Assembly: GCF_000878135.1 (NCBI RefSeq)
Contig: NZ_JXQZ01000099.1
Location: forward strand, 1-64,000
Source: Frigoribacterium sp. MEB024
GTDB lineage: Bacteria; Actinomycetota; Actinomycetes; Actinomycetales; Microbacteriaceae
DNA length: 64,000 nt
Direction of reading: 5' to 3'
The notes under the pieces are model-generated. The model was not told the DNA's origin. It made no database searches and worked only from the letters and a program-made list of their open reading frames with translations. Numbering within the stretch: position 1 is the stretch's first letter; every line of letters begins with the position of its first letter. Shown here one piece after another: positions 1,884 through 28,180 of the stretch. The translations under genes were made by a program, and so were the position numbers.

Positions 1884-2744
1884 TCACGTCTTCGGGAGCC
1901 ACTCCCGGATCGTGGCCGCGACCAGATCGAGGTGTGACTCGAGCAGGAAGTGTCCACCGTCGACGAGCTCGACGCGAGCGTCCGGGGCGTCGCGGGTGAA
2001 GGCACCCGCACCGGCGGCATCGAAGATCTCGTCGTTGCGGCCCCAGATCGCGAGGACCGGGACGCGGGAGGCGCGGAGCCAGGAGTGAACGGCGGGGTAC
2101 AGGGCGCGGTTGGTGGCGTAGTCGCGGAAGAGTGCCAGTTGGACGTCGTCCTGTCCCGGCCGGGCGAGGAGCGCGAGGTCGTGTTCCCAGGCATCGGGGT
2201 CGACGGATGTGGGGTCCGGCACGCCGTGGGTGTACTGCCATTCGACCGCCTCGCGGCCCAGGGCGGGTCGGAGCGCGTCGCGCGTCTCGGACGTCCGTTC
2301 GGCGGCGTCGGCCCAGATCGGGTCCCAGAAACTCGGCACGAAGCCTTCTCCGTACGCGTTGCCGTTCTGCGAGACGACAGCGGTGACCGCATCGGGCTCG
2401 GCCAGCGCGAGGCGCCACCCGACGGGGGCGCCGTAGTCCTGCACGTAGATCGCGTACCGCGCGACGCCGATGGTCGACAGGAAACGACCGGTCACCCGCG
2501 CCAGGGCCTCGAAGGTGTACTCGAACTCGTCGACCGACGGAGCGGAGGAGCGGCCGAAACCGATGTGGTCGGGGGCGATGACGCGGTACCGGTCGGCCAG
2601 AGCGGGGATGAGGTGGCGGAACATGTGCGAGCTCGTGGGGTAGCCGTGGAGGAGGACGAGAACGGGCGCGTCGGCGGGGCCGGCATCGCGGTAGAAGACG
2701 TCGAGCCCGTCGACAGAGGCGGTGCGGTGGTGGACGGTGACCAT
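1884..2744 (-). CDS. alpha/beta hydrolase, haloalkane dehalogenase / epoxide hydrolase-like
   Basis: 286-aa alpha/beta hydrolase. The motif HGYPTSS supplies the oxyanion region. The nucleophile elbow reads VQDYGAP, with Asp rather than Ser as nucleophile, as in haloalkane dehalogenases and epoxide hydrolases. WGRNDEIF and GGHFLLE supply the acid and His. AAAGGGG precedes the ATG. The gene is divergent from a CGNR zinc-finger gene across an unusually A/T-rich 85-bp gap, so the neighbour may regulate it; this is inference from position only. Confidence 0.8.
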   Translation of the reverse strand: MVTVHHRTASVDGLDVFYRDAGPADAPVLVLLHGYPTSSHMFRHLIPALADRYRVIAPDHIGFGRSSAPSVDEFEYTFEALARVTGRFLSTIGVARYAIYVQDYGAPVGWRLALAEPDAVTAVVSQNGNAYGEGFVPSFWDPIWADAAERTSETRDALRPALGREAVEWQYTHGVPDPTSVDPDAWEHDLALLARPGQDDVQLALFRDYATNRALYPAVHSWLRASRVPVLAIWGRNDEIFDAAGAGAFTRDAPDARVELVDGGHFLLESHLDLVAATIREWLPKT

Positions 2745-2829
2745 GTCTAACCCCTTTGGATTGTTTTAGTGGTTATCCCGACGGTAGCATGGTCGAGATG
2801 CGCCGGACGGTGCGAGAGAGCAGGGAGAC

Positions 2830-3327
2830 GTGTTTCGCGACGAAGAGCTGCTCCTGGCCGTGCTGAACAGCGCACCGGTGGTCGACGGCGTCCCGACGGA
2901 CGCCCTCGAGGGCGCGGCAGGGCGAGATCTGGTGCGGACCTGGGGTGGCACGGGCTCATCGGGCGAGGTCGCCCAGCTCAGGCGCGTGCGAGAGGCCCTG
3001 CACGCCGTCGTCCGCGGTGGCGACGACGGGGCCGTCGCCGAGCTCGCCGACGTCATGGACCGGACCGTGCAGATCCCGCGGACGACCCGGGACGGCGTCG
3101 TCTGGGAACTCCGGGTGCCCGGCGACGACCGACTCGCGGTCGCAGCCGTGTCGGCGTGGTCGAGCGTGACCTCGACGCTGCCCGGGCGCCTCCGTGCCTG
3201 CGCGAACGACGAGTGCAACCTGTTCCTGGTGGACCACAGCCGTCCCGGCACGGCGAAGTGGTGCTCCATGGCGACTTGCGGCAACCGGATGAAGGCGCGG
3301 GCCCACGCACGCCGCGCGAAGGACTGA
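2830..3327 (+). CDS. CGNR zinc-finger / ABATE-domain protein, putative regulator
   Basis: 165-aa protein with an N-terminal ABATE-like stress region and a C-terminal CGNR zinc finger: the four metal-binding cysteines fall in CANDECN and CSMATCGNR, followed by a basic tail. Family members are presumed DNA-binding transcriptional regulators, but few have been tested. The GTG start has AGGGAG 5 nt upstream. It is divergently arranged with the Asp-nucleophile hydrolase, the usual layout for a local regulator and its target. Confidence 0.8.
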   Translation: MFRDEELLLAVLNSAPVVDGVPTDALEGAAGRDLVRTWGGTGSSGEVAQLRRVREALHAVVRGGDDGAVAELADVMDRTVQIPRTTRDGVVWELRVPGDDRLAVAAVSAWSSVTSTLPGRLRACANDECNLFLVDHSRPGTAKWCSMATCGNRMKARAHARRAKD

Positions 3328-3412
3328 GCGTGCCTCCTGAGGGCTGCGCGCGTAGCGTCGCCCCGGTGGATGCACCGGCCCTCGGCGCATCCCTCGATCG
3401 AGGGAGCGCGTC

Positions 3413-4300
3413 GTGAAGGTCGTCATCACGGGATCACGGGGCAAGGTCGGCCGTGCCGCCGTCGGGCGGTTCGTCGAGGCCGGGCACGACGTCCTCGGCG
3501 TCGACCTCGTCCGGCCCGTCTTCGACACGGGCGTCGACGAACCCGGCCGCTACGTGATGGGCGACCTGACCGACGCGGGGACCGCCTTCTCGGTGGTGGC
3601 AGGGGCCGACGTCGTCGTCCACGTCGCGGCCATCCCGCAGCCCACCGCGAACCCGGCCCACGTCGTGTTCCACACCAACCTGATGTCCACCTTCAACCTG
3701 GTCGAGGCGGCCGTGCGGTTCGGCGTGCCCCGCTTCGTCAACGTGTCGAGCGAGAGCATCGTGGGCAACTTCTTCCCCGAACGGCCCTTCCTGCCCGACT
3801 ACGTGCCGGTCGACGAGGAGCACCCCCTCCACCCGCAGGACCCCTACGCCCTCTCGAAGGCGTTCGGCGAGCAGCTGATGGACGCCGCCGTCCGGCGTTC
3901 CGACCTGCGCGCGATCTCGATCCGCCCGAGCACTGTCCACGACGACGGCAACTACGAGGCCAACCTCGGCCCTCAGGTGCGCGAGGCTGATCCCGAGAGT
4001 GCGAACTTCGGCAGCTACGTCGACGCCGACGACCTCGCCGACGCGCTCCTGCTGGCCGCCGAGTCCGACCTGCCGGGTCACGAGGTCTTCTACATCGCCG
4101 CAGCCGACAACGCCGGCGGCCACGACGTCGCCGCCACCCTCCGAGAGCACCACGGCGACCGCATCGAACTGCGCGAGCTCGACCGGGTCGACGCGTCGGG
4201 CATCTCGACCGCCAAGGCGGCCCGCATGCTCGGCTGGAGGGCGAAGCGCTCCTGGCGGGACCACCTCGACACCGAGGGTCACGCCCTGCCGAAGGCCTGA
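3413..4300 (+). CDS. NAD-dependent epimerase/dehydratase (extended SDR)
   Basis: 295-aa extended short-chain dehydrogenase. The N-terminal dinucleotide motif is GSRGKVG (residues 7-13). The catalytic pair is YALSK, with a serine in NVSSES. It resembles UDP-glucose 4-epimerase-like and uronate dehydrogenase-like proteins, but the substrate cannot be read from sequence. The GTG start has GAGGGAG 8 nt upstream. It converges with the next hydrolase gene. Confidence 0.82.
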   Translation: MKVVITGSRGKVGRAAVGRFVEAGHDVLGVDLVRPVFDTGVDEPGRYVMGDLTDAGTAFSVVAGADVVVHVAAIPQPTANPAHVVFHTNLMSTFNLVEAAVRFGVPRFVNVSSESIVGNFFPERPFLPDYVPVDEEHPLHPQDPYALSKAFGEQLMDAAVRRSDLRAISIRPSTVHDDGNYEANLGPQVREADPESANFGSYVDADDLADALLLAAESDLPGHEVFYIAAADNAGGHDVAATLREHHGDRIELRELDRVDASGISTAKAARMLGWRAKRSWRDHLDTEGHALPKA

Positions 4301-4313
4301 CCGCCGACGAGCG

Positions 4314-5045
4314 TCAGAGCAGCTCGGCCAGCAGCGCGAAGGTGCGGTCGGGTGCCTCGAGCTGCATGTCGTGGTGGACGCCCGGCAGGCGGCGGATCTG
4401 CCAGCCGGCCCGCTGGTAGCCCGACACGAGACGCTCGGGCAGGACGGCGGAGGAGTCGTCGGACAGCACGATGACCGAGGGCACCGTGGGCTCCGTCGTC
4501 GCGACGGGGTGGAAGGCGACGTCGCGGAACACGCCCACCGCCATGCCCGAGTCGAACCGGGCGTGGGCCTGATCCAAGGAGGCGCGGGTCGCGTCGTCGT
4601 ACCCGGCGCGCAGTCGCGCGCTCTTCCGCGCCTGGGCGAGGGCCGCGACACCCATCGTCACGGTGGGGGCGGCCCAGAAGAGCCGGCCGGCGAGGCCCGT
4701 CGTCGGCAGGGCGAGGGAGAACCCGGGGTCGAGGTAGACGGCCGTGCGGGGCTGCAGCCGTTCGACGGCGCGGACGAGCGCGGAGCCGCCCAGCGAATGC
4801 CCGACGACACCGTGCAGTCCCTGGGGCAGGGCCGAGGCGACGTCGTCCGCGAACTCGTCGAGCCGGTACGACGACGCCCGGTCGCTCTCACCGTGACCCC
4901 GCAGGTCGAGGGTGGTGACCGTGTACGAACCGGTCGCGACGAACCGGTCGACGATCGGCTTCCAGGTCGCACCGTCGGCGCCGAGCCCGTGGACGAGGGC
5001 GACGTGGCGGTCGCCGTCGCCGATGGTCGTGACATCCAGGTGCAT
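4314..5045 (-). CDS. alpha/beta hydrolase
   Basis: 243-aa serine hydrolase of the alpha/beta fold. HGLGADG is the oxyanion loop, GHSLGG the nucleophile elbow, and GVHHDMQ the late His. Cytosolic, with no signal peptide. The ATG at 5045 is preferred because AGG sits 9 nt upstream; an in-frame ATG at 5054 directly abuts that AGG. A copy of the GGAGGCGCGG motif falls inside this gene near 4578. Substrate unknown. Confidence 0.8.
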   Translation of the reverse strand: MHLDVTTIGDGDRHVALVHGLGADGATWKPIVDRFVATGSYTVTTLDLRGHGESDRASSYRLDEFADDVASALPQGLHGVVGHSLGGSALVRAVERLQPRTAVYLDPGFSLALPTTGLAGRLFWAAPTVTMGVAALAQARKSARLRAGYDDATRASLDQAHARFDSGMAVGVFRDVAFHPVATTEPTVPSVIVLSDDSSAVLPERLVSGYQRAGWQIRRLPGVHHDMQLEAPDRTFALLAELL

Positions 5046-5121
5046 GACGACCATCCTGCCTGTCACCATGGGGCGTACGCCGACCCGACCGAGCCGACGC
5101 ACGCACGAGAAGGGCACGATC

Positions 5122-5562
5122 ATGGCCGACACCGGATTCAGCAAAGAAGAGAAGGCCGCCATGAAGCAGCGCGCCGCCGAGCTCCGGGCCGAGGCGAAGC
5201 GCCAGAAGTTGGCCGACAAGTCGGCCGCCGAGGCGCAGGACGCCGCGGACGCCATCGCGGCCATGACCGACGTCGAACGACCGATCGCCCAGATGGTGCA
5301 CGAGGTCGTCGCCGAGCACGCCCCGAACCTCGCCCCCAAGACCTGGTACGGCTTCCCCGCCTACGCCCGTGAGGACGGCAAGGCCGTCGTTTTCTTCCAA
5401 CCCGGCGCCAAGTTCGGCACTCGCTACTCGACCCTCGGGTTCCAGGACGGTGCCCAGCTGGACGACGGCACCCTCTGGCCGACCTCGTACGCGGTGACCG
5501 GCGCCGACGACGCGACCCGCGCCTCCGTCGCCGCCCTCGTCCGGAAGGCCGCCGGACTCTGA
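5122..5562 (+). CDS. DUF1801 / iron-chaperone-like (YdhG) family protein
   Basis: 146-aa protein. The N-terminal ~50 residues form a charged, alanine-rich helix (KEEKAAMKQRAAELRAEAKR). The C-terminal domain carries the TWYGFPAYA and VVFFQPG motifs of DUF1801, a fold shared with frataxin-like and YdhG proteins. Some relatives are annotated as iron chaperones, but that function is weakly supported. The start is preceded by GAAGGGC. It converges with the next gene with only 4 bp between stops. Confidence 0.75.
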   Translation: MADTGFSKEEKAAMKQRAAELRAEAKRQKLADKSAAEAQDAADAIAAMTDVERPIAQMVHEVVAEHAPNLAPKTWYGFPAYAREDGKAVVFFQPGAKFGTRYSTLGFQDGAQLDDGTLWPTSYAVTGADDATRASVAALVRKAAGL

Positions 5563-5566
5563 CGCG

Positions 5567-5965
5567 TCAGTACGCGTCGGCCGACAGGGCGATCAGCGGG
5601 TAGGCGACCGGCCCGGCGAACGCGAGGAGCACCGCCAGGGTGACGGCGGTGATCGGCAGCCCCATCAGGCGCTGTCGGAGCGCGAGGGACAGCACACCGA
5701 CGACGAGGGTCACGATCGCGAGGACCCAGCACAGCACCGACGCCACCGTCGCGACGCCGAAGGCGTGGATGCCGTACGCCGCCGCCTCGCCGCGGTAGGA
5801 GTGGATCATCGGCTGGAGGACGACGAAGGGGACGACCCCGGTGACGACCGCGAGCACCACCGAGGTGATCGGCAGGACGAGACGGGCGGGGTGAGGTGGC
5901 CGACGGCGAACCGGAGCCGGCGGGGGCGCCGGAGGTGCGGGTGGTGCGACGGGAGGCCGACTCAT
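5567..5965 (-). CDS. small DUF4190-like integral membrane protein
   Basis: 132-aa membrane protein. A proline-rich cytosolic N-terminus (about 27 residues) is followed by three hydrophobic helices at roughly 30-52, 68-90 and 96-120. Proline-rich-plus-TM proteins of this type are common in actinobacteria and lack a known role. The start codon is not backed by a strong ribosome site. Confidence 0.65.
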   Translation of the reverse strand: MSRPPVAPPAPPAPPPAPVRRRPPHPARLVLPITSVVLAVVTGVVPFVVLQPMIHSYRGEAAAYGIHAFGVATVASVLCWVLAIVTLVVGVLSLALRQRLMGLPITAVTLAVLLAFAGPVAYPLIALSADAY

Positions 5966-6042
5966 GCCGCCACCCTAGGCGGACCGATCGGTCGATGCCG
6001 CCGTGACCGTGACCCTCGGCCCGGCGCTATGATCGTCCCCAC

Positions 6043-14012: not shown

Positions 14013-14233
14013 TCGCTCACTCTCGCACGCCCACACGGCCTGTCGCTGGGCGCTTCCCCGAGCCCCCTGCCGCGACGAGCGCAGCGATGTCGCACACCCC
14101 GCGATGCCGTGACCGCGACGAGCGCAGCGAAGTCCTGACCCTCGACGTCGTGGATGCGCTCGCGCATCCGCGACCAGAAGGCCCTGGAGCCCGATAAATC
14201 CCCTGCCCGTCGGAGGGCAGGGGTTTCCACTCA
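14013..14233. other. non-coding left flank of the tRNA-His island
   Basis: No supported gene. It holds two identical 18-bp direct repeats (14070-14087 and 14113-14130, ccgcgacgagcgcagcga), a small gatgcg/cgcatc hairpin near 14150, and a terminator-like hairpin at 14200-14223. It is probably the original downstream region of tRNA-His before an element inserted. Confidence 0.6.
14200..14223 (-). terminator. hairpin, likely ancestral tRNA-His terminator
   Basis: 9-bp perfect stem (cccctgccc / gggcagggg) with a 6-nt loop; on the minus strand it is followed by ATTTATC. It lies 10 bp beyond the duplicated tRNA-His 3' end, where a tRNA terminator would have been before insertion of the island. Confidence 0.6.
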
Positions 14234-14255
14234 GGTGAGTAACGGGGCAGGAACC
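14234..14255. repeat. attachment-site-like duplicate of the tRNA-His 3' end
   Basis: Fifteen identical bases (ggtgagtaacggggc) match 16749-16763, the acceptor and T-arm end of tRNA-His. The match continues after two mismatches with gaacc, giving 20 of 22. This is the expected distal att copy of an element integrated at a tRNA gene. Confidence 0.8.
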
Positions 14256-14403
14256 AGTCTGCGAGACTGCCCACCCCGCCCTCTTTCTCTTTTTAAACAT
14301 GGCAGGCGGGCCGGCTGATGCTGCTGTGAGGGTAGGCCGAAAAGTGCCGAGAAACGCTGGCTTATGTAGCCGCGGCCACATTTAGCTACGCGCTCGCCGA
14401 GGC

Positions 14404-15651
14404 CTAGCCGGCAGCATCGGGGCCCTCGTTCACATCTTCCTGCCGGACCACTAGGGGCATCGTAATGCCCAGCTCGGGACGGGGCACGAACGCATCCATG
14501 AGCTCAATGTTGGACTGGTAACGGCCACGTCCTACCTCGCGGATGAGCTTTAACTCGAGCAGCTTCGAAATGTCGCGGCTGAAGAGTCGGTCGCTTGCTG
14601 TCGCGTACATGACGGCGATGTCCGCATTGAGGCGCTTGATGTCCCTCTTGGTGTACTCAACATCGGGGAGCAGAGCAAGAACAACGGCGCGGCGCCGTTT
14701 GGCGATCTCCGTCGAGGGCTCACTCTGAAAAGCCTCGTGGACATAGTTGATCCAGGCCACCCGTCTCTGCTGGGTCTGGACCTCTTCGATTTGCTCGCGG
14801 AGCTCATCGCGGAAGCCGATCGCGCTGTAGGCAATGAACCCAGGCAGGTCCATGGCGCGGGAAGCAGCTTCAAGGCGCTGGTAGTAGCGAGGCTTGGTCT
14901 TGTTGTAGTAGTTGGACAGGACCGTGGTGCTGACCCAGGGGACAGTACTGGAGTGCGCGAGGATTGCTGCCTCCACAAGCCTCGCCGTCCGGCCGTTGCC
15001 GTCGCCGAAGGGATGGATCCAGGCGATGTAGATATGAGCAAGCGTCGCCGCAAAGAAGCTAAGGAAGAACCGCTGGTCCAGGGTGCGACTCTTCTCGGCC
15101 TGCTCGATAATGCTGTTGATCCAGGTCGACATCTCCTCCATGAGGTAGGGCACATCCTCGGTCGGAGCGCCCTTGTAGGTGCCGACGCCAACAGCGACGG
15201 TGCGCAACTCGCCAGGGACAACGTGGTCTTCGAGTTCGAGGTCGCGCATCAAGAGGGCATGCTTGGACAGCATCCATTCTGTGGACAGTCGGAAGGTACC
15301 TGACGCGGTTATTTCACCTCTGACATCGATGAGAGCGTCGACGACGTTCCGCACTTCCTGCTCCTGGTAGCGCTGCGACTCAGGGAGCGAGCGATTGTTG
15401 ACGAGGATGTCTTCGACTTGGTCCTCGTTCAAGGTGTTGCCCTCGATGGCGGCCGAGGCCAGGGCTCCGCGACGCAGGAAGACCTCGGACAGATGCATGG
15501 CAAGGGCAGGCTGCAGCGGCGTGCCGATCAAGTGCTGGCACTTGGAGAACGCCTCGCCGAGATGGGCCCAGGCAATGGAGCCGAGAGATTGCGGATCGAA
15601 CTTGAAGGTCAGCCACTCATGCGTCGTCTGGTAGGTCCGGGTGGGGGTCAT
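14404..15651 (-). CDS. Fic-family AMP-transferase-like protein
   Basis: 415-aa Fic-domain protein. The active loop HPFGDGNGRTAR (residues 213-224) keeps the catalytic His, the acidic metal ligand and both glycines and arginines. An N-terminal inhibitory helix motif SAAIEGN (Ser66, Glu70, Gly71) identifies the self-inhibited class II type. Fic proteins transfer AMP or related groups to protein hydroxyls. A winged-helix-like C-terminus follows (after ~320). The ATG lies 7 nt after TAGTGT, so it may be leaderless; an in-frame ATG lies 30 nt upstream. Codon use is less GC-rich than the flanks, and the gene is cargo of the tRNA-His island. Confidence 0.9.
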   Translation of the reverse strand: MTPTRTYQTTHEWLTFKFDPQSLGSIAWAHLGEAFSKCQHLIGTPLQPALAMHLSEVFLRRGALASAAIEGNTLNEDQVEDILVNNRSLPESQRYQEQEVRNVVDALIDVRGEITASGTFRLSTEWMLSKHALLMRDLELEDHVVPGELRTVAVGVGTYKGAPTEDVPYLMEEMSTWINSIIEQAEKSRTLDQRFFLSFFAATLAHIYIAWIHPFGDGNGRTARLVEAAILAHSSTVPWVSTTVLSNYYNKTKPRYYQRLEAASRAMDLPGFIAYSAIGFRDELREQIEEVQTQQRRVAWINYVHEAFQSEPSTEIAKRRRAVVLALLPDVEYTKRDIKRLNADIAVMYATASDRLFSRDISKLLELKLIREVGRGRYQSNIELMDAFVPRPELGITMPLVVRQEDVNEGPDAAG

Positions 15652-15741
15652 GGGATAAACACTACCTGTTTTTGTCCACATCCGTGTCGCGGAACGTGTC
15701 CAGGATTCCGTCCTCGAACTGGTGATTAAAGGTGCCGACTT

Positions 15742-16263
15742 CTAAGCGGTTGCATCTCGAGCGCTATCGCCCCCGGTTCCCTCGCCCGCCTCGGTCGAGC
15801 CGCTCGCTGATGCCCCGGCGGCACCCTTGGCCACGTCGCTCTTTGACGGCGTGTACAGGGTGGTGAAGGCCGCCGCCGTGATGACGGTAAGGAAGAGCGC
15901 CACGATGACTAAGACCGCCACGGAGACGACATAGAGCCAGGCTGGCCCATCTTCGCTGAGGCGCCGAACCCAGGTCCAGGTGTAGTAGATCGCCAGTGTG
16001 GTGCCGGCGAAGAGAATCAGCGTCAGTATTAAGTTGCCGACGTTCAGCTTGCGGCTGTGACGCCGTGCCTCGCGCTCGGCCAGCCATCTAACCTCATCTG
16101 CGAGGAGAGCCTGCATGCCGATCTCCGCGGCGCCAGAATCTTTGAGCTTCGCCAACAGATCCGCGTGGTGATCCACCCTCTTCGACAGCCGACTGGTTCC
16201 CTTGAACAGGGTGGCGATGACGCCAAGAAGAGGGACGGCGATGGCGCCAAGTGCTTGCCACAT
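15742..16263 (-). CDS. hypothetical three-TM membrane protein (island cargo)
   Basis: 173-aa protein. A short N-terminal helix (LGAIAVPLLGVIATLF) is followed by a charged, probably helical segment (about 20-75), two strong TM helices (about 80-100 and 112-135), and a Gly/Ser/Glu-rich tail. No recognised family. The ATG has AAAGGA 8 nt upstream. It sits between the fic gene and the integrase remnant, upstream of fic on the same strand with about 90 bp between. Confidence 0.65.
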   Translation of the reverse strand: MWQALGAIAVPLLGVIATLFKGTSRLSKRVDHHADLLAKLKDSGAAEIGMQALLADEVRWLAEREARRHSRKLNVGNLILTLILFAGTTLAIYYTWTWVRRLSEDGPAWLYVVSVAVLVIVALFLTVITAAAFTTLYTPSKSDVAKGAAGASASGSTEAGEGTGGDSARDATA

Positions 16264-16298
16264 TCCGGTGGTCCTTTCAGTTCGCGGGCGCTCGCCGG

Positions 16299-16697
16299 TC
16301 AGGCGGCTATGAGGTTGAAGCGGTGGAGGTTCCAATAGACGCTGATCAAGCGGGTGGAGACTCCCATCTCGTGGGCCCACCTCGACGTACCGGGTGACCA
16401 TCGCATGAGGTCGACCGAGTCGGGGTGGACGTACTGGTCGACCCAGTCGCGGAACGTGGGCCCGTCACCGGCGGAGGGCTGCCGGGCTTCCCACATGGCG
16501 AGCGCCGCAGCTGCGCCGACGCGGTCGATGAGGCCGCCGAATTGGCGTGCGCCGGCCTCGTGCTTGAAGGACTTCGATCGCATGGCGGCACCGAGTCGGA
16601 ATTGGACCCGCCGGCAGATGCGTCCGTCCTTCATTCGACACGGTAAAACAGCGGCCAAGATGCCTCCAAGAGTGGGCATCCGCCGGGAACGAAACAA
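16299..16697 (-). pseudogene. truncated tyrosine-recombinase (phage integrase) N-terminus
   Basis: Up to 132 codons. The stretch RSKSFKHEAGARQF, then an Ala-rich helix and FRDWVDQYV, resembles the N-terminal AP2-like and core-binding part of actinophage-type tyrosine integrases. The catalytic domain (R-H-R-Y) is missing: the frame ends after an unrelated 45-residue tail. Its place right beside the tRNA att site is where an integrase normally lies. Assignment rests on recalled family pattern. The start is uncertain (16697 or 16634). Confidence 0.55.
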
Positions 16698-16740
16698 GCG
16701 GATGTAGCCCTAGCTAATGACCTTGGCTTACATCCGCTTG
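16695..16740. repeat. inverted repeat beside the tRNA-His att site
   Basis: 12-bp perfect arms (caagcggatgta at 16695-16706 and its complement at 16729-16740) flank a 22-bp spacer. It lies between the integrase remnant and the tRNA 3' end. It could be a terminator for tRNA-His supplied by the element (A/T-rich run at 16741-16746) or an integrase arm site. Confidence 0.5.
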
Positions 16741-16748
16741 CTTTTTCG

Positions 16749-16822
16749 GGTGAGTAACGGGGCTTGAACCCGCGGCCTCCTAGACCACAACCAGGCGCTC
16801 TACCAGCTGAGCTATACCCACC
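16749..16822 (-). tRNA. tRNA-His (GTG anticodon)
   Basis: Cloverleaf read on the minus strand: acceptor GTGGGTA paired with TACTCAC (one G-U), D-stem GCTC/GAGC, anticodon arm CCTGG-TTGTGGT-CTAGG giving GTG, T-arm with TTCAAGC. An extra 5' G opposes the discriminator C, the His identity feature. CCA is not encoded. Its 3' end is the integration target of the neighbouring island. Confidence 0.95.
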
Positions 16823-21401: not shown

Positions 21402-23509
21402 GCGCCGGGACCACGCCGGTGCCGCTGACCGATCGACGCGCGCCGTCCGGGTCGGCCGGCCCGCGCCTCCGTTCGCTCGCCCGTCGCCTGGTGCGCGGGC
21501 GTGAGGACGCGGCACGGTGGGAGCGACCGGCGTTCCTCGCGCTGCTGGTCGCCACGGGGGCCTTCTACCTGGTGAACCTGTCGGCGAACGGCTGGGCGAA
21601 CTCGTTCTACTCGGCCGCGGTGCAGGCCGGTTCGCAGAACTGGGAGGCGTTCCTCTTCGGTTCGTCCGACGCCGCCAACTCGATCACGGTCGACAAGCCG
21701 CCCGCGAGCCTGTGGATCATGGCGTTGTCGGTCCGGGTGTTCGGGCTGTCGTCGTTCAGCATCCTGCTGCCCGAGGCGCTGATGGGCGTCGCGACCGTCG
21801 GACTCGTCTGGGCCACGGTGCGGCGGCACTTCTCGGGCGTCGCCGCGTTCGTCGCCGGTGGAGTCCTCGCCCTGACCCCGGTCGCCGTGTTGATGTTCCG
21901 CTTCAACAACCCCGACGCGCTGCTCGTGCTGTTGCTGACCCTCGCCACGTACCTGACGCTGCGCGGCGTCGAGACGGGCCGCGTCCGCTGGGTCGTCTGG
22001 GCCGGCGTGGCGATCGGCTTCGGCTTCCTGACCAAGCAACTGCAGGCGTTCGTCATCCTGCCCGTGCTGGCCGGGGTGTACCTCGTCGCGGCGCCCGTCC
22101 TGCTGCGCCGGCGGGTGCTGCACCTGCTGGCCGCGCTCGGTGCGGTCGTGGTGTCGGCCGGCTGGTGGGTCGCCCTCGTCGAGCTGGTGCCCGCGAGCAT
22201 GCGGCCGTACGTCGGTGGCTCGCAGACCAACTCGTTCCTGGAGTTGACCTTCGGCTACAACGGCCTCGGACGGCTCACGGGTGACGAGACCGGCAGCGTG
22301 ACGGGCGGGGGCGGCGGCACCGGCGCTGCCACGACGGGCATGTGGGGCGAGACCGGCATCACCCGGCTCTTCACGGGCGAGTTCGGTGGCCAGATCACCT
22401 GGTTGCTTCCCGCCGCCCTCGTGATCGGCGTCTCGGCACTCGTGCTGCTCGGCTGGCGACACCGGACCTCGGCCCGTCGGGCGACCCTGTTGCTGTTCGG
22501 TGGCTGGACGGTGCTGACCGCCCTCGTCTTCAGCTTCATGTCGGGCATCTTCCACGCGTACTACACGGTGGCGCTCGCCCCGGCCGTCGCGGTCACCCTC
22601 GGGGCTGCGGCCGACGTGTTGTGGCGACGACGGACCCGGTTGTGGGTCCGGATCGTGCTGGCCGCGTCGGCTCTGCTCACGGGCGTCTGGGCCTGGGTGC
22701 TGCTCGGTCGGGCGGAGTCCTGGCAGCCGTGGCTCCGGTACGTCGTCGTCGCGCTCGCCGTCGTGGGCGCCGTGCTCGTGCTGCTGCCGCGACGGGGTCG
22801 GACGCTCACGGCGGCGACCCTCGCCGTGCTGCTCACGGGCGGCCTGCTGGCTCCGGCGGCCTACTCGGTCGAGACCGTGTCGACGGCCCACACCGGTTCG
22901 ATCGTCACGGCCGGCCCGACCGTGTCGGGTGGCACGGGCGGGTTCGGCGGTGGTGGCGCAGGCGGCGCCGGTGGCTTCGGCGGTCGCGGTGGAGCCGCTG
23001 GTGGCGGGCCCGGTGGCGCGGCTGGCGGAACGCCCCCGCAGCTGCCGGGCGGCACCGGCGGGGGAGCGGGCACCGGCACCGGCACCGGAGCGGGAACCGC
23101 GGGAGGCGCGGGTACGGCCACGCGCGCACTCCCCGGTGGCGGGGGCGGAGCCGGCTCGCTGCTCGGCTCGGGCTCGGTCAGCGACGAGCTCGCCGCCGTG
23201 GTCGGCGCGGACTCGGACCGCTACACCTGGGTCGCTGCGGCCGTCGGGTCGAACAGCGCGGCGGGCTACCAGCTCGCGACCGGCGACCCGGTCATGGCGG
23301 TCGGCGGGTTCAACGGCAGCGACCCGTCACCGACCCTGGCGCAATTCGAGCAGTACGTCGCCGACGGGCAGATCCATTGGTTCGTCGGAGGGACCGTCGG
23401 GCAGTCGAACGGCGGCAGCTCGTCCTCGAGCGAGATCGCGGCCTGGGTCGAGGCGAACTTCTCCTCGACCGAGGTCGACGGGGTCACGCTGTACGACTTG
23501 ACCAGCTGA
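21398..23509 (+). CDS. GT39-like (PMT/ArnT) polyprenyl-sugar glycosyltransferase, YkcB-like
   Basis: 703-aa membrane glycosyltransferase. The first loop has SITVDKPPASLW, the signature of the PMT/ArnT superfamily, followed by ~11 helices. A glycine-rich low-complexity linker (about residues 508-590) separates the membrane part from a C-terminal extracytoplasmic domain with YTWVAAAVGSNSAAGYQ and GGFNGSDPSPTL. It likely uses the lipid-linked sugar made by the coupled GT2 protein to glycosylate a wall polymer or protein. ATGA-coupled start. Confidence 0.88.
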   Translation: MSAGTTPVPLTDRRAPSGSAGPRLRSLARRLVRGREDAARWERPAFLALLVATGAFYLVNLSANGWANSFYSAAVQAGSQNWEAFLFGSSDAANSITVDKPPASLWIMALSVRVFGLSSFSILLPEALMGVATVGLVWATVRRHFSGVAAFVAGGVLALTPVAVLMFRFNNPDALLVLLLTLATYLTLRGVETGRVRWVVWAGVAIGFGFLTKQLQAFVILPVLAGVYLVAAPVLLRRRVLHLLAALGAVVVSAGWWVALVELVPASMRPYVGGSQTNSFLELTFGYNGLGRLTGDETGSVTGGGGGTGAATTGMWGETGITRLFTGEFGGQITWLLPAALVIGVSALVLLGWRHRTSARRATLLLFGGWTVLTALVFSFMSGIFHAYYTVALAPAVAVTLGAAADVLWRRRTRLWVRIVLAASALLTGVWAWVLLGRAESWQPWLRYVVVALAVVGAVLVLLPRRGRTLTAATLAVLLTGGLLAPAAYSVETVSTAHTGSIVTAGPTVSGGTGGFGGGGAGGAGGFGGRGGAAGGGPGGAAGGTPPQLPGGTGGGAGTGTGTGAGTAGGAGTATRALPGGGGGAGSLLGSGSVSDELAAVVGADSDRYTWVAAAVGSNSAAGYQLATGDPVMAVGGFNGSDPSPTLAQFEQYVADGQIHWFVGGTVGQSNGGSSSSSEIAAWVEANFSSTEVDGVTLYDLTS

Positions 23510-23685: not shown

Positions 23686-23761
23686 GCCCCCGTAGCTCAG
23701 CGGATAGAGCAGGAGCCTTCTAATCTCTTGGTCGCAGGTTCGATTCCTGCCGGGGGCACCA
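23686..23761 (+). tRNA. tRNA-Arg (TCT anticodon)
   Basis: Cloverleaf: acceptor GCCCCCG/CGGGGGC, D-stem GCTC/GAGC, anticodon loop CTTCTAA giving TCT, T-arm GCAGG-TTCGATT-CCTGC, discriminator A at 23758. CCA (23759-23761) is encoded. The following sequence turns A/T-richer at once, marking an insertion. Confidence 0.95.
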
Positions 23762-23944
23762 CGCCACCGATGATCTACGCGGTGCTTCTCGTCTCTTCGT
23801 ACATTGTCGGTACCGGCTTAGCTGCGATGCCTGACACCACTGCAGTCCCGAAACTTCAATCTGTCCACTAGGTTGTCGAAGGCGGCTCAGTTTTATGGAT
23901 GCTGCGCAATGTCTATTAAGACCACTCACAAGCCGGGGGGCTTC

Positions 23945-25096
23945 ATGGCTCAAATAATTTCGATGTTTAACCACAAGGGTGGCGTGTCGAAAACCACGAC
24001 AACGTTCAACCTTGCGTGGATGCTGGCAAACAAGGGGAAACGCGTCCTCATGGTCGATGCTGATCCCCAATGCAACCTCACGGGCGTAGTGCTTGGGCTT
24101 AATCCAGAGTGGCCCGACGATGACCTTGAGGACGGCTTAGGGCTCCTCGAAGGGGACGAAGAGAGCGAGGATTTCGACAAGACTCAGTCAGCAGCAGAGG
24201 ACTTTTGGACTACGAACTTTGAGAAGACCCTATTTGGGGCATTGAAGCCTGCGTTCGACTCAGAGCCGAGAATGTTGGAGGCTGTCGACTGTATTCCCGT
24301 AGAGGGTCGAGATGGCCTATTCCTCCTGCCGGGGCATCTGCGCCTTGGGGAATATGAAGTGTCACTTGGAATTGCACAAGAGTTGGCGGGATCGATGCCA
24401 GCCCTTCGAAACCTTCCCGGAGCTATGCACTACTTGCTGACGCAAACGGCAGAAAAACTCGACATCGATTACGTCGTGATCGATATGAGTCCTAGCCTTG
24501 GTGCCCTTAATCAGAATCTCGTGTCGATTAGTGATCAGCTAATCGTTCCAACGTCACCAGATTTCTTTTCGATAATGGCGCTCCAATCGCTGGCCCGCGT
24601 ATTGCCTCGATGGGGCCGATGGGCAAAAACAGCCAGCCAGAACGAGGTTCTGGGCGAAGCTTCGTACCCCTTCCCTGAGCCGCGACTCAAGCTAGGCGGC
24701 CTAGTCATTCAGCGCTACCGGCTCTACCGATCCGCAACTGACGATGAACCGTATGGAACTCCCACGGGCCCATTCCAATCGTGGATTGAAAAAGTAGAGG
24801 AGGCTTCTCGAGATCAGTTTGTACCCGCGTTGGCTGCATCTGGATTAACATTTGACATGGATGCTTATGAAGCAGCCGGTATTCCGTCCTCTCTTGTCTT
24901 AGCCCAAGTTCAAGAATTCAACAGCCTCCTACCGAAGTCGCAAGACTTCCACGTGCCTGTCTACGAGTTGTCGGACGTTCAGCTTGGCCAGGCCGGAATC
25001 GTTCTCGAAGGGTCGAGAGCGCAAATCGAGTCCCTAAACAGAATTTTTTCCCAGTTTGCGGATCGCGTACTGGAACTTCTAAGTAGGGAGTCCTAG
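23945..25096 (+). CDS. ParA/Soj-like ATPase, first gene of a ParA-HEPN pair
   Basis: 383-aa deviant-Walker-A ATPase. The P loop FNHKGGVSKTTTT lies at residues 8-20, with Ser for the usual Gly after Val. VLMVDADPQCN and VVIDMSPSLG supply the switch/Walker B regions. The C-terminal half (after ~230) is longer than in plasmid ParA and has no ParB partner nearby. ATG chosen at the MAQIIS start, with GGGGGG just upstream; an earlier ATG lies at 23909. Markedly less GC-rich than flanking genes. Stops immediately before the HEPN gene, so they form one unit inserted after tRNA-Arg. Confidence 0.85.
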   Translation: MAQIISMFNHKGGVSKTTTTFNLAWMLANKGKRVLMVDADPQCNLTGVVLGLNPEWPDDDLEDGLGLLEGDEESEDFDKTQSAAEDFWTTNFEKTLFGALKPAFDSEPRMLEAVDCIPVEGRDGLFLLPGHLRLGEYEVSLGIAQELAGSMPALRNLPGAMHYLLTQTAEKLDIDYVVIDMSPSLGALNQNLVSISDQLIVPTSPDFFSIMALQSLARVLPRWGRWAKTASQNEVLGEASYPFPEPRLKLGGLVIQRYRLYRSATDDEPYGTPTGPFQSWIEKVEEASRDQFVPALAASGLTFDMDAYEAAGIPSSLVLAQVQEFNSLLPKSQDFHVPVYELSDVQLGQAGIVLEGSRAQIESLNRIFSQFADRVLELLSRES

Positions 25097-25699
25097 GTGT
25101 CTGCTGAGGCACTAGGCGTCTTCGAGCGCCTGATGGCTCAGGTAGAACAAGTTGAGGAGGCGGCCCTTCGAGCGGAGCGAGATGGGTACTTAGAGTCTGC
25201 GCCCATCCTGCGTAGAAGCGCGTTTGTTCTGGCCGTGGCCAGTGTAGATACGTACTTCCACGAACGCGTGGTGGCGATGTTGTCGTCTCGCATCCGCCGG
25301 GGCCCGGACGAAGTGACCGCCATTGTTAGTTATCTTCGCCGTGGTACTGATCAGGAGCTTTCAGGATCAGACGGGCTGGGGCACATCCGGCTTGCTCTTT
25401 CGTACAAGACTCTGGTATCCCCGGACATGATTGATAAGGCTCTACTGGCCGGAGGTGTCGATCCGCAAGCCATTTGGTTGAGTGCTGCTCTCAAGATCGG
25501 CTCCAGACCAGATCGAATTCGGCTACAGCTCCAGTTGTATTACGACCGTCGCAACCAGATCGCGCATGAGGGCGATTGGGACGCTATCCAGCTCGAGTTT
25601 CGTGCCATGCAACAGGCGCATCTTGAGGACTGTACGAAACAACTTGCAATGATCATTAGAGCTGTTGAAGACGCATTAGCTTTGGCGGAACGGAGCTAA
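25097..25699 (+). CDS. HEPN-domain putative RNase, partner of ParA-like ATPase
   Basis: 200-aa all-helical protein. RRNQIAHEGDW (Arg152 to His157) is the RX4-6H active motif of HEPN RNases, and SAFVLAVASVDTYFHERVV is the matching first helix pair. It resembles RiboL-PSP/MAE_28990-type HEPN proteins, many of which are toxins or defence effectors. GTG start with zero spacing from the ParA stop, so co-translation is expected. RNase activity is inferred from the motif. Confidence 0.78.
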   Translation: MSAEALGVFERLMAQVEQVEEAALRAERDGYLESAPILRRSAFVLAVASVDTYFHERVVAMLSSRIRRGPDEVTAIVSYLRRGTDQELSGSDGLGHIRLALSYKTLVSPDMIDKALLAGGVDPQAIWLSAALKIGSRPDRIRLQLQLYYDRRNQIAHEGDWDAIQLEFRAMQQAHLEDCTKQLAMIIRAVEDALALAERS

Positions 25700-25711
25700 G
25701 GCGTGTCATAA

Positions 25712-25737
25712 GACGCGTGCACCCGGAGGGACGCGTC
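25712..25737 (+). terminator. possible terminator after the ParA-HEPN unit
   Basis: 7-bp perfect arms (gacgcgt / acgcgtc) separated by 12 nt, 13 bp past the HEPN stop and close to where GC-rich composition resumes. No T-run. Confidence 0.45.
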
Positions 25738-25767
25738 GAACAAGAAGGTTGTATAGCCCCGAATTGA

Positions 25768-26643
25768 TCAGGCTCGATTATCTTGCGACAGTTCGGGTGC
25801 CGTGCGGCGGCGGACCTGGCTCGCACTGACCGGCTGCTCGTAGCGCTCGTCGTCCATCGGGTCGTCACGCGTGTCGTCGTGGGAGGCGTCACCCGACGTG
25901 ACGGCGGGTGCCTCGGGCGCGGACATCGGCGACGGTCCGGTCAGCGGGGCGGGAGCCGTGGGTGCTCGGTAGGCCTCGTCGCCACCCCGGACCGGGGCAT
26001 CGTCGAGGGCCGCGGGGCGGAGCGTCGCCGAGGGGGCGGCACCCGTGGGCGCGGAGGCCTCGGTGCGTCGCTGCTCGGTCGCCGACGCGGCGCGCTGCTC
26101 GGCCTCCCAGGCTTTCTGCTTCGCGGCCGTGTCTCGGTCGACGTCGGCCTCTTCGTACTTCCAGCGGGCGAGATCGTCGCGGAAGAGCTTCTTGGCCCGG
26201 CCGGGGCGGTTCTGCCACTCGACGAGGCGGTCGCGGAGTTCACCGAGCGTCTGCTCGGACTGGAAGCTGAAGGACGCCGAGTTGCGCTTGATCTCGGCCA
26301 GTTCGTGAGCCGCCCAGTCGGCGGCGAGGGTGCTGCCGGTCGCGGGCAACAGCCGCAGGCGGACGTCGGCTTCGTGGCCGAGGTGATCGGCGTAGGCACG
26401 CTCCTCGACCCCGAGCGAGGTGTAGACGGCACCCTTGCGGGCCGCCGAGACGAGGGCCGCGACGGCCGCGGCTTTCGCCTCGTCCTCGTGCGACGACACG
26501 ACTCGCCGCGTGCTCGCCCGGCCGATGAGGGCTGCGACGACGCCGGCCACGACGATGGCGACGAAGGGGATCACCGCATCGGTGACGACACGCCACCCGT
26601 TGTCCGAAGAGAGCCATTCGACGAGATCGTTCCACCACTGCAT
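25768..26643 (-). CDS. hypothetical single-TM protein with long charged tail
   Basis: 291-aa protein. One TM helix (about residues 22-42, VIPFVAIVVAGVVAALIG) follows a Trp-rich start. A helical region rich in Glu, Arg and Ala (about 50-190) and a disordered Pro/Ala/Asp tail follow. No family recognised. The ATG lies 7 nt after TAGTGT, supporting a leaderless start. Confidence 0.65.
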   Translation of the reverse strand: MQWWNDLVEWLSSDNGWRVVTDAVIPFVAIVVAGVVAALIGRASTRRVVSSHEDEAKAAAVAALVSAARKGAVYTSLGVEERAYADHLGHEADVRLRLLPATGSTLAADWAAHELAEIKRNSASFSFQSEQTLGELRDRLVEWQNRPGRAKKLFRDDLARWKYEEADVDRDTAAKQKAWEAEQRAASATEQRRTEASAPTGAAPSATLRPAALDDAPVRGGDEAYRAPTAPAPLTGPSPMSAPEAPAVTSGDASHDDTRDDPMDDERYEQPVSASQVRRRTAPELSQDNRA

Positions 26644-26733
26644 GGGGCGAACACTACAGCCGAGGTCGAAGGTTGGACGGCTGCGACATGCTGTCGGGGA
26701 GGCCGTCACGGTGCCCGGGCGGAGGCATCGGGA

Positions 26734-27030
26734 TCAGGCGAACCGGAAGCAGTCGGTGGCGTCGTCGCGACTCCAGAACTCACCGATCTCGACGAAGCGA
26801 CGCTGACGGGGCAGGAACCGCTTGGCGCGGTAGCGATCGCCCTGCGGGTCGTCGAAGCGCTCGACGTAGCCCACGATCTCACCGCCGGGTCGGGTCACCC
26901 GAGCGAGGTCGTCGTGCACCTGGACGAGGTGCAGGCCGCCCCGGGTCGAGCGCAGGGAGGGCAGGGGAACGCCTGCGTGAGCGTGCGGGGCAGACGGGAC
27001 GATCGCGTGGTCGAGGGTGCTGCTGGTCAT
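26734..27030 (-). CDS. conserved-looking hypothetical protein, 98 aa
   Basis: Small protein without TM segments: an N-terminal His/Pro-rich part, then a compact basic domain ending EFWSRDDATDCFRF. Good ribosome site AGGAGC 6 nt before the ATG. Function unknown. Downstream of the aldo/keto reductase on the same strand but separated from it by a terminator. Confidence 0.6.
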   Translation of the reverse strand: MTSSTLDHAIVPSAPHAHAGVPLPSLRSTRGGLHLVQVHDDLARVTRPGGEIVGYVERFDDPQGDRYRAKRFLPRQRRFVEIGEFWSRDDATDCFRFA

Positions 27031-27128
27031 GAGGTGCTCCTGAGGTCATCCGGCCGATGCTGTCGAGAACACCCTTGACGCTAGGGGTGACCACCGACAT
27101 CGACCTCGGGCACCTCGGACCTCGGAGA

Positions 27129-27153
27129 GCGCGGTGCCCCGTCGGCACCGCGC
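27129..27153 (-). terminator. terminator of the aldo/keto reductase gene
   Basis: 10-bp perfect stem (gcgcggtgcc / ggcaccgcgc) with a 5-nt loop, starting 8 bp beyond the reductase stop. Confidence 0.65.
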
Positions 27154-27160
27154 CGTCCGG

Positions 27161-28180
27161 TCAGCGGCCCGTGCCGTCGACCGCCAGCGGCTCGATCGCC
27201 GCGAGCTCGTCCTCGGTCAGCTCGGCACCGTCGAGGGCGTCGAGGCTGTCGTCCAGCTGGGCCACCGACGAGGCGCCGATGAGGGCGCTGGTCACGGCGG
27301 GCTGACGCAGCACCCAGGTGAGCGAGAGCTGCGCGAGCGACTGGCCCCGCGCCTCCGCGATCTCGTTCAGGCCGCGGACGCGCGAGAGGTAGGTCTCGTC
27401 GAGGGCGTCCTCGGAGAACCACCGGCCCTCGGCCGCGCGCGAGCCCGCGGGAGCACTGCCCGAGAGGTAGCGGTTCGTCAGGAGGCCCCCGGCCAGGGGC
27501 GAGAACACGATCGAGCCGACGCCGCGGGTCAGCAGGGTGTCGAAGAGCCCCCGCTCGGGCCGGCGGTCGAACATGTTGTACCGCGGCTGGTGGATCAGCA
27601 GCGGCACGCCCTCTGCCGCCAGGGCGTCGATCGCGGCCTCGGTCTGCGCCGGGTCGTAGTTGGAGATGCCGGCGTAGAGCGCCTTGCCCTGCCGGACGGC
27701 CGTCGCGAGCGCCCCCATCGTCTCGTCGATCGGGGTCTCGGGGTCGGGGCGGTGCGAGTAGAAGATGTCGACGTGGTCCATGCCGAGCCGCCCGAGGCTG
27801 GCCTCGAGCGAGTTGAGCAGGTACTTGCGCGACCCCCCGTCGCCGTACGGCCCGGGGGTCATGTCGTAACCCGCCTTGGACGACACCACGATCTCGTCGC
27901 GGTAGGGGCGCAGGTTCGCCGCGGCGATGCGGCCGAACTGTTCTTCGGCCGAGCCGTAGGGCGGGCCGTAGTTGTTCGCCAGGTCGAAGTGGGTGACCCC
28001 GCGGTCGAACGCGCGGAGCACGATGTCGCGCTGGGTCTCGAGTCCGCGGTCGGAACCGAAGTTGTTCCAGAAGCCCAGCGAGATGCGGGGCAGCTTGAGC
28101 CCGCTGCGGCCCGTGCGGACGTAGTCGAGTCGTGAGTACCGTGCGTCGTCGGCGACGTAGGGCGTGAAGGGTGATCTCAT
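27161..28180 (-). CDS. aldo/keto reductase, YghZ-like (L-glyceraldehyde-3-P reductase type)
   Basis: 339-aa AKR of the YghZ/AKR14 type. The catalytic tetrad is visible as Asp and Tyr in HFDLANNYG, Lys in SSKAGYD and His in YSHRPD. The loop GPPYGSAEEQFG is typical of the subfamily. NADPH-dependent carbonyl reduction, possibly detoxifying methylglyoxal or L-glyceraldehyde-3-P. The ATG lies 6 nt after TAGGCT: leaderless, back-to-back with msrA. Confidence 0.9.
   Translation of the reverse strand: MRSPFTPYVADDARYSRLDYVRTGRSGLKLPRISLGFWNNFGSDRGLETQRDIVLRAFDRGVTHFDLANNYGPPYGSAEEQFGRIAAANLRPYRDEIVVSSKAGYDMTPGPYGDGGSRKYLLNSLEASLGRLGMDHVDIFYSHRPDPETPIDETMGALATAVRQGKALYAGISNYDPAQTEAAIDALAAEGVPLLIHQPRYNMFDRRPERGLFDTLLTRGVGSIVFSPLAGGLLTNRYLSGSAPAGSRAAEGRWFSEDALDETYLSRVRGLNEIAEARGQSLAQLSLTWVLRQPAVTSALIGASSVAQLDDSLDALDGAELTEDELAAIEPLAVDGTGR

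Follow-up and report, generated by a model that had tools for sequence, protein, structure and literature searches.

Cis-mobilizable elements (CIMEs) are described as elements that have lost their integration and transfer genes while retaining both attL and attR, and as decayed integrative and conjugative elements (ICEs) or integrative and mobilizable elements (IMEs) (PMC5704250). Hotspots at tRNA genes have been described in Escherichia coli (PMC10121019). Here we analyse a 2.5-kb element at the tRNA-His gene of Frigoribacterium sp. MEB024, located in a 64,000-nt stretch of contig NZ_JXQZ01000099.1 (positions 1 to 64,000; referred to below as the window). We regard it, with a probability of about 85%, as a deletion-collapsed, prophage-type, non-autonomous (CIME-like) remnant with a putative anti-phage Fic protein. 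Like a CIME, it keeps both att sites and has a truncated integrase, and no transfer or conjugation family was found among the three element frames that were run. The full-length integrases nearest to its own belong to two prophages and to one island of unassigned class. The closest counterparts at the same target are these two prophages (in genomes G180 and G194) and Microbacterium phage Footloose (NC_073460), for which a literature search found no paper. They share a 13-bp core (GGTGAGTAACGGG), which extends to 15 bp in G194 and Footloose; both prophages have their integrase gene behind the tRNA, as the window element has its remnant. All three retain phage genes and a complete integrase, whereas the window element is 2.5 kb long and lacks the catalytic domain. 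Among the titles listed (at most 12 per subject) for islands at tRNA-His in Microbacteriaceae, for CIMEs, for terminators that have been displaced, for Fic proteins in prophages and for remnants that keep cargo, none describes this element; one listed paper, on the genomes of Frigoribacterium adelgis and their genomic islands (PMC12823222), may bear on it. The element belongs to a known kind, that of common genomic fossils, and a second element at the same site in Frigoribacterium sp. Leaf263 slightly raises its interest. The case clearly illustrates how the cargo of a tRNA-integrated element can outlast its collapse, since one can still read the junctions on either side, the sites without the insert, the hairpin that first trailed the tRNA and relatives whose integrase is complete.

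The two copies of the attachment core (GGTGAGTAACGGGGC; for this and all other features see the table) match exactly over 15 bp and are identical at 20 of 22 positions over 22 bp, as the sequence-only reading of this stretch had reported. The repeated stretch comprises the last 15 bases of tRNA-His, the final C excluded. A degenerate 22-mer of the tRNA-His end (up to three mismatches) found only the two att copies in the window, the maximum count in 100 shuffles being 0. In the draft genome of the same strain (G000; 3.41 Mb in 136 contigs, with the window on contig C136), the inner 14-mer GTGAGTAACGGGGC has one place with a single mismatch and only two exact places, both of them att copies, so the 22-bp match is not a common dispersed sequence. 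The exact 15-mer is present in two copies each in this genome and in that of Leaf263 (G002). The lower GC (guanine plus cytosine) content previously noticed between the repeats was borne out (61.5% for 14249-16748 vs. 70.3% for the window), although a stretch near 23251 is lower still. At third codon positions the GC fraction is 0.78 in fic and 0.76 in the membrane protein gene, compared with 0.95 and 0.91 in two flanking genes.

The arrangement that preceded the insertion can be read in related genomes. A search with the left flank covered 99 genomes, including that of the strain itself, and matched 84 of them, among which were all 15 other genomes of the same genus. Fourteen of these 15 have an empty site, with the exact 15-mer present once and no insert at the core; the remaining one, Leaf263, has two core copies and an insert of its own. 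The tRNA-His sequence is identical to that of the window in all 14 empty-site loci, where it is followed by the trailer, and also in Leaf263 (locus L042). In 13 of the 14 loci, tRNA-His is followed after 6-11 nt by a perfect stem of 8 bp or more; in the fourteenth (L015), where no perfect stem of at least 7 bp was found, an interrupted stem is readable. In loci L002-L004 and L006-L008, a CCCCTGCCC/GGGCAGGGG hairpin lies 6-8 nt after the tRNA, and the same hairpin is found in the window beyond the far core copy. When the window flanks are joined at the core, they reproduce the empty-site arrangement of tRNA-His followed by the hairpin. Thus, the uninterrupted tRNA-His that the sequence-only reading proposed to look for in strains lacking the insert does exist, and the hairpin that it took for the displaced original terminator of the tRNA corresponds to the trailer hairpin of close empty-site relatives. 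With empty sites present and the repeat not dispersed, neither of the two refuting conditions that this reading had named applies. The displaced hairpin folds at -21.7 kcal/mol (14190-14233; z -2.5, with five of 200 shuffles equally good) and is weaker than the trailer hairpin of empty-site locus L003 (z -5.2). The fic gene ends about 180 bp before it, and the hairpin could end the fic transcript. The distance from a fixed point in the metallopeptidase gene to the tRNA is 128-1,244 nt across the 14 empty-site loci and 285 nt in the joined window. In two loci from other genera (L019 and L029), no tRNA-His was found within the 3.3-kb stretch examined. A core that is not continued as a tRNA was found in only two of the 398 genomes of a family sample (G000 and G002), a count that is blind to insertions in genera with a differing tRNA-His end.

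Next to the tRNA lies the remnant that the earlier reading had called a dead integrase. The 132-aa frame matched no family in Pfam, PHROGs or NCBIfam, but its residues 5-94 align at 34% identity with the N-terminus of the Footloose tyrosine integrase, its best phage match; 39 phage records match it in all, each at less than 60% identity. Similarity to integrases stops at residue 94, and the catalytic domain is missing. Matches to the remnant were found in eight of the 398 family-sample genomes, including that of the strain itself. The three best full-length integrases (398 aa in G169, 399 aa in G180 and 381 aa in G194) are each encoded beside tRNA-His, with a second copy of the 13-bp core at 7.8, 32.9 and 41.3 kb respectively. 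Full-length relatives with the same attachment core, for which the earlier reading had proposed to look, were thus found, in the 13-bp version of that core. Among the weaker integrase relatives, G315 has one 13-bp core copy and G260 and G326 have none. In a PHROGs run on ten proteins, four integrases were matched as integrases, the G180 element was found to carry terminase, portal and tape-measure genes and the G194 element one minor tail protein gene; neither an 842-aa protein of G194 nor a G194 protein in the flank outside the element had a PHROGs match. A 20-nt stretch of the tRNA-His end recurs exactly, and once, in the 39,738-bp genome of Footloose; allowing for up to three mismatches adds no further place. 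Taken together, these comparisons indicate that integrases of the remnant's kind target tRNA-His via this core and that the window frame is such an N-terminus without its catalytic domain. The element of G169 (L067, 1488-9342) spans 7.8 kb at tRNA-His and has a full integrase of the remnant's kind; by reading only, its open reading frames (ORFs) look like a monooxygenase, a large regulator and a flavin reductase, and the library run on it was confined to the integrase.

Several searches for a closer, autonomous relative ended without one. None was confirmed among six candidate stretches that the remnant picked out in viral contigs, and an exact 22-nt pattern made of the core and CCCAGTAA, which follows the core in Footloose, found none in viral contigs. 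No plasmid record matched the remnant (E 0.01) or the Fic protein (E 1e-20). A scan of 84,980 species with two exact peptide patterns of the remnant, which detect close relatives and miss distant integrases, yielded 102 candidate stretches and one confirmed relative, that in Leaf263.

The fic gene is intact, as had been claimed. Its product matches the Pfam family with E = 7.1e-15 and the PADLOC SoFic profile with E = 4.7e-54 (residues 48-398 of the 425-aa frame), and relatives at 38-80% align from residue 8-15 of that frame. In the 415-aa protein that begins at the likely start, the catalytic motif HPFGDGNGRTAR is intact at position 213 and an inhibitory-type motif, SAAIEG, occurs at residue 66, so that both HPFx[D/E]GN[G/K]R and (S/T)xxxE(G/N) are present. 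The assignment to class II follows the rule for that class. Solved structures related to the protein include FICD. Relatives (E 1e-60, 38-80% identity) were found in four of the other 397 family genomes and in three viral contigs (38-63% identity). One of these contigs has the same genes as family genome G300, in which, by eye, an integrase-like frame and long tail-like frames are found nearby. Relatives also occur in 23 phage records, of which ten Gordonia phages align over 85% at 39-40% identity; in Gordonia phage Mcklovin the fic gene adjoins a gene annotated as an integrase. The profile match and the SAAIEG and HPFx[D/E]GNGRxxR motifs suggest a likeness to Sofic, which is reported to work by abortive infection and which in E. 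coli has AS1, a gene for a 47-aa antitoxin, downstream (PMC12249575). The window element differs in that no minus-strand ORF of at least 20 aa lies wholly between fic and the core, that is, no AS1-like short downstream antitoxin ORF was found beside fic. AS1 may not define the Sofic family, as it has been described for an E. coli Sofic. The protein would be a kept anti-phage AMPylator, with putative activity. The membrane protein noticed between the repeats is also present, probably starting at 16263 rather than 16401, because the former is an ATG with a purine-rich stretch before it. Pfam gave it no family above the cut-off. Matches came from seven of the 397 further genomes in the family sample, at ~25-38% identity with a best E of 1.5e-9, but neither these nor PHROGs or NCBIfam pointed to a convincing family.

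Features of the tRNA-His element and its attachment sites in the window
Feature	Position	Strand	Remarks
tRNA-His (GTG), integration target	16748-16821	minus	intact
Attachment core within the tRNA-His gene	16749-16763	plus	restored 3' end
Displaced copy of the tRNA-His 3' end	14234-14248	plus	15-bp core; similarity extends to 14255
Displaced trailer hairpin of tRNA-His	14197-14226	minus	host sequence; 2.5 kb from the tRNA, downstream of fic
Left attachment arm	14249-14380		AGTCT..GACT inverted repeat; TATGTAGCCGCGGC with TGTAGCC at 14365; similar in the Leaf263 element
fic, class-II Fic protein	14404-15651	minus	415 aa from the likely start; open frame to 15681 (425 aa)
Small membrane protein	15742-16263	minus	173 aa
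Integrase remnant	16299-16697	minus	N-terminal region only, catalytic domain lost; 132-aa frame beside tRNA-His
Right-arm hairpin, candidate substitute terminator	16692-16743	minus	overlaps TGTAGCC at 16703

The insert in Leaf263 occupies 4.0 kb between core copies at L042 2016 and 6028 (element 2016-6042). It resembles the window element in its site, core, left and right arms and integrase N-terminal remnant, and differs from it in its length, its cargo and its remnant, which contains an in-frame stop and diverges after about residue 71 (about 94 in the window). The cargo consists of two unassigned proteins, one of 387 aa and a membrane-like one of 201 aa, and of a 349-aa TIR-effector-like protein (2159-3208), which matches a TIR effector profile (E 1.3e-10), weakly resembles a structure entered as ADP-ribose pyrophosphatase (E 0.004) and has no Pfam family above the cut-off. 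In a tree of two flanking genes, Leaf263 pairs with G003, whereas the window genome groups with G013, G015 and G005, the last of which was represented for one gene by no more than 142 nt; G003, G005, G013 and G015 are all empty at the core. Counted by hand, separate origins take two insertions and a common origin takes one insertion plus five losses, so we prefer the view that the two elements were probably inserted independently. These two cases, few as they are, suggest that tRNA-His may be a small site for defence cargo in this genus. Leaf263 also has, about 40 bp after a tRNA-Arg, a 47-bp piece that partly copies the 3' half of that tRNA (L042 9465-9511), as if another element had collapsed there almost fully.

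The ends of the two elements are alike, the right ones more so (75% over 298 bp, E 5e-50) than the left ones (66% over 146 bp, E 7e-4), the core included in both cases. Each right arm has a 12-bp perfect stem that starts 7-8 nt after the restored tRNA (8 nt in the window). In folding, the window hairpin (16676-16748; -32.8 kcal/mol, z -4.44) and its equivalent in L042 (z -4.88) both beat all 200 shuffles, and direct reading shows that the stems vary on both sides (GGATG/CATCC in the window, GGTTG/CAACC in Leaf263). We infer that the element supplies tRNA-His with a substitute terminator. The alternative is that the hairpin reflects the symmetry of an integrase site, since neither element has a clear T run after the stem and a TGTAGSC motif occupies hairpin bases. 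This motif lies 116 nt (window) and 117 nt (L042) inside the left core and starts 46 nt from the right core in both elements, with one extra copy in Leaf263. Footloose likewise has TGTAGGC motifs around its core, and five of the seven TGTAGSC copies in a 5.3-kb stretch of that phage lie within 200 bp of the core; the window as a whole contains 11 copies. Unlike the window element, however, the elements of G169 and G180 have none, and that of G194 has a single copy and none on its far side. As a shared arm motif, TGTAGSC is suggestive only, given these gaps and the fact that it was picked after looking.

These observations can be combined in the following scheme. An element of the temperate-phage type, whose tyrosine integrase was of the Footloose/tRNA-His kind, would have recombined its attP with the last ~15 bases of tRNA-His. 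Integration would have rebuilt the tRNA end from element sequence and moved the host's own copy, together with the hairpin behind it, to the opposite end of the element. Later deletions would have taken the interior and the catalytic domain of the integrase and spared both arms, the integrase N-terminus, the membrane protein gene and fic, leaving the right-arm hairpin to terminate tRNA-His and the displaced one to end, presumably, the fic transcript. The 2.5-kb remnant would be held in place because no integrase matching it was found in the genome, which has no second place similar to the integrase N-terminus; candidates for a helper, on contigs C35 and C98, were rejected, as they match the Footloose integrase in its catalytic half only. 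Self-excision is judged impossible with the catalytic domain missing. The view of the sequence-only reading that the element is immobilised should thus hold for its self-mobility, but with both ends kept the element could still be mobilised in trans.

Whether the ancestor was a phage is the less certain part of this reading. A small genomic island made of an integrase and cargo, never a phage, could have used the same site and chemistry and later lost its integrase, and we consider this other ancestry possible, if doubtful. Integrase-only, defence-carrying islands of unclear mobility have been described in E. coli (PMC10121019), and the G169 element, with its full integrase, has ORFs that by eye suggest metabolic rather than phage genes. 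Several further results weigh against a phage ancestor. PHROGs found no structural phage family among the three frames of the element, so that the case for a phage origin depends on the integrase and on the genomes in which Fic relatives occur; nor does the membrane protein match any phage record. The remnant and the Footloose integrase are only 34% identical, and in Footloose about 0.8 kb separates the core from the integrase gene downstream of it. No tRNA-His accompanies the weak integrase matches in G260, G315 and G326 within the stretches of 2.7-3.3 kb examined. As the ORFs of the G169 element, read without a library run, showed no phage-like product, integrases of the remnant's kind appear to drive non-phage islands too. 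On the other hand, two of the three nearest full-length integrases sit in elements with phage structural genes, Footloose has an identical core and relatives of the Fic protein are found in phage genomes. We therefore favour a phage ancestor over another island. Mere chance similarity or an ordinary duplication of the tRNA gene, with no integration at all, is highly improbable: the exact core is unique, the empty sites exist, an integrase remnant stands where, and points as, one would expect, and the architecture recurs in relatives. We reject a chance repeat or tandem tRNA duplication on the unique core and the empty sites.

The likeness of the two Frigoribacterium elements raises another question, namely whether they are decayed at all. 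A living minimal cassette without an integrase of its own, which relies on Footloose-like phages or islands for movement in trans and carries exchangeable defence-like cargo, would explain why elements from separate subclades have both ends in common, with motif distances that are nearly equal, different cargo (Fic vs. TIR-like) and a truncated integrase in each. An active cassette would be expected to be commoner, however, than the two family genomes with a non-tRNA core and the single relative (Leaf263) confirmed by the species scan, which detects close relatives only. Neither host has another place that matches the integrase N-terminus, the left end of the G169 element is without the shared arm, and no helper that has it came to light. 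Moreover, the remnants end differently (at about residue 94 vs. about 71 with an in-frame stop), which resembles decay. We consider such a cassette unlikely, and we hold equally slight expectations for its extension to a whole family of minimal cassettes at the tRNA-His of Frigoribacterium, made of arms and a substitute hairpin with swappable anti-phage cargo and spread by Footloose-type phages. If such a family existed, it would consist of satellites of less than 5 kb that retain only the attachment sites; should the shared arms be used in trans, they would show how little an element needs for mobility. The collapsed prophage-type remnant thus remains our preferred interpretation of the window element.

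Other features were noticed around the tRNA-His locus and elsewhere in the window. In G005, the nearest relative by its flanks, the metallopeptidase gene and the hairpin of tRNA-His (L008) are set apart by an additional ~1 kb that contains long open frames, which makes this distance the longest among the 14 empty-site loci; the core, on the other side of the hairpin, is empty. The spacer before the displaced hairpin in the window contains a 22-nt repeat (21 of 22 identical) with CGACGAGCGCAGCGA at 14070-14091 and 14113-14134 and a palindrome, GGATGCGCTCGCGCATCC, at 14150-14185; similar repeat units occur in the corresponding spacer of several genus-mates and possibly represent a REP-like repeat. 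A second low-GC islet (23686-26100), which overlaps the lowest 2.5-kb GC fraction of the window (0.574), directly follows a tRNA-Arg (23686-23761). No displaced end of this tRNA (at least 17 of 26 positions) was found in 23762-27500. The islet encodes a ParA/AAA_31 ATPase (23948-25096) and a HEPN RiboL-PSP-like protein (25097-25699, below the Pfam cut-off), and blastn showed its genes to be absent from the matching place in Leaf263.

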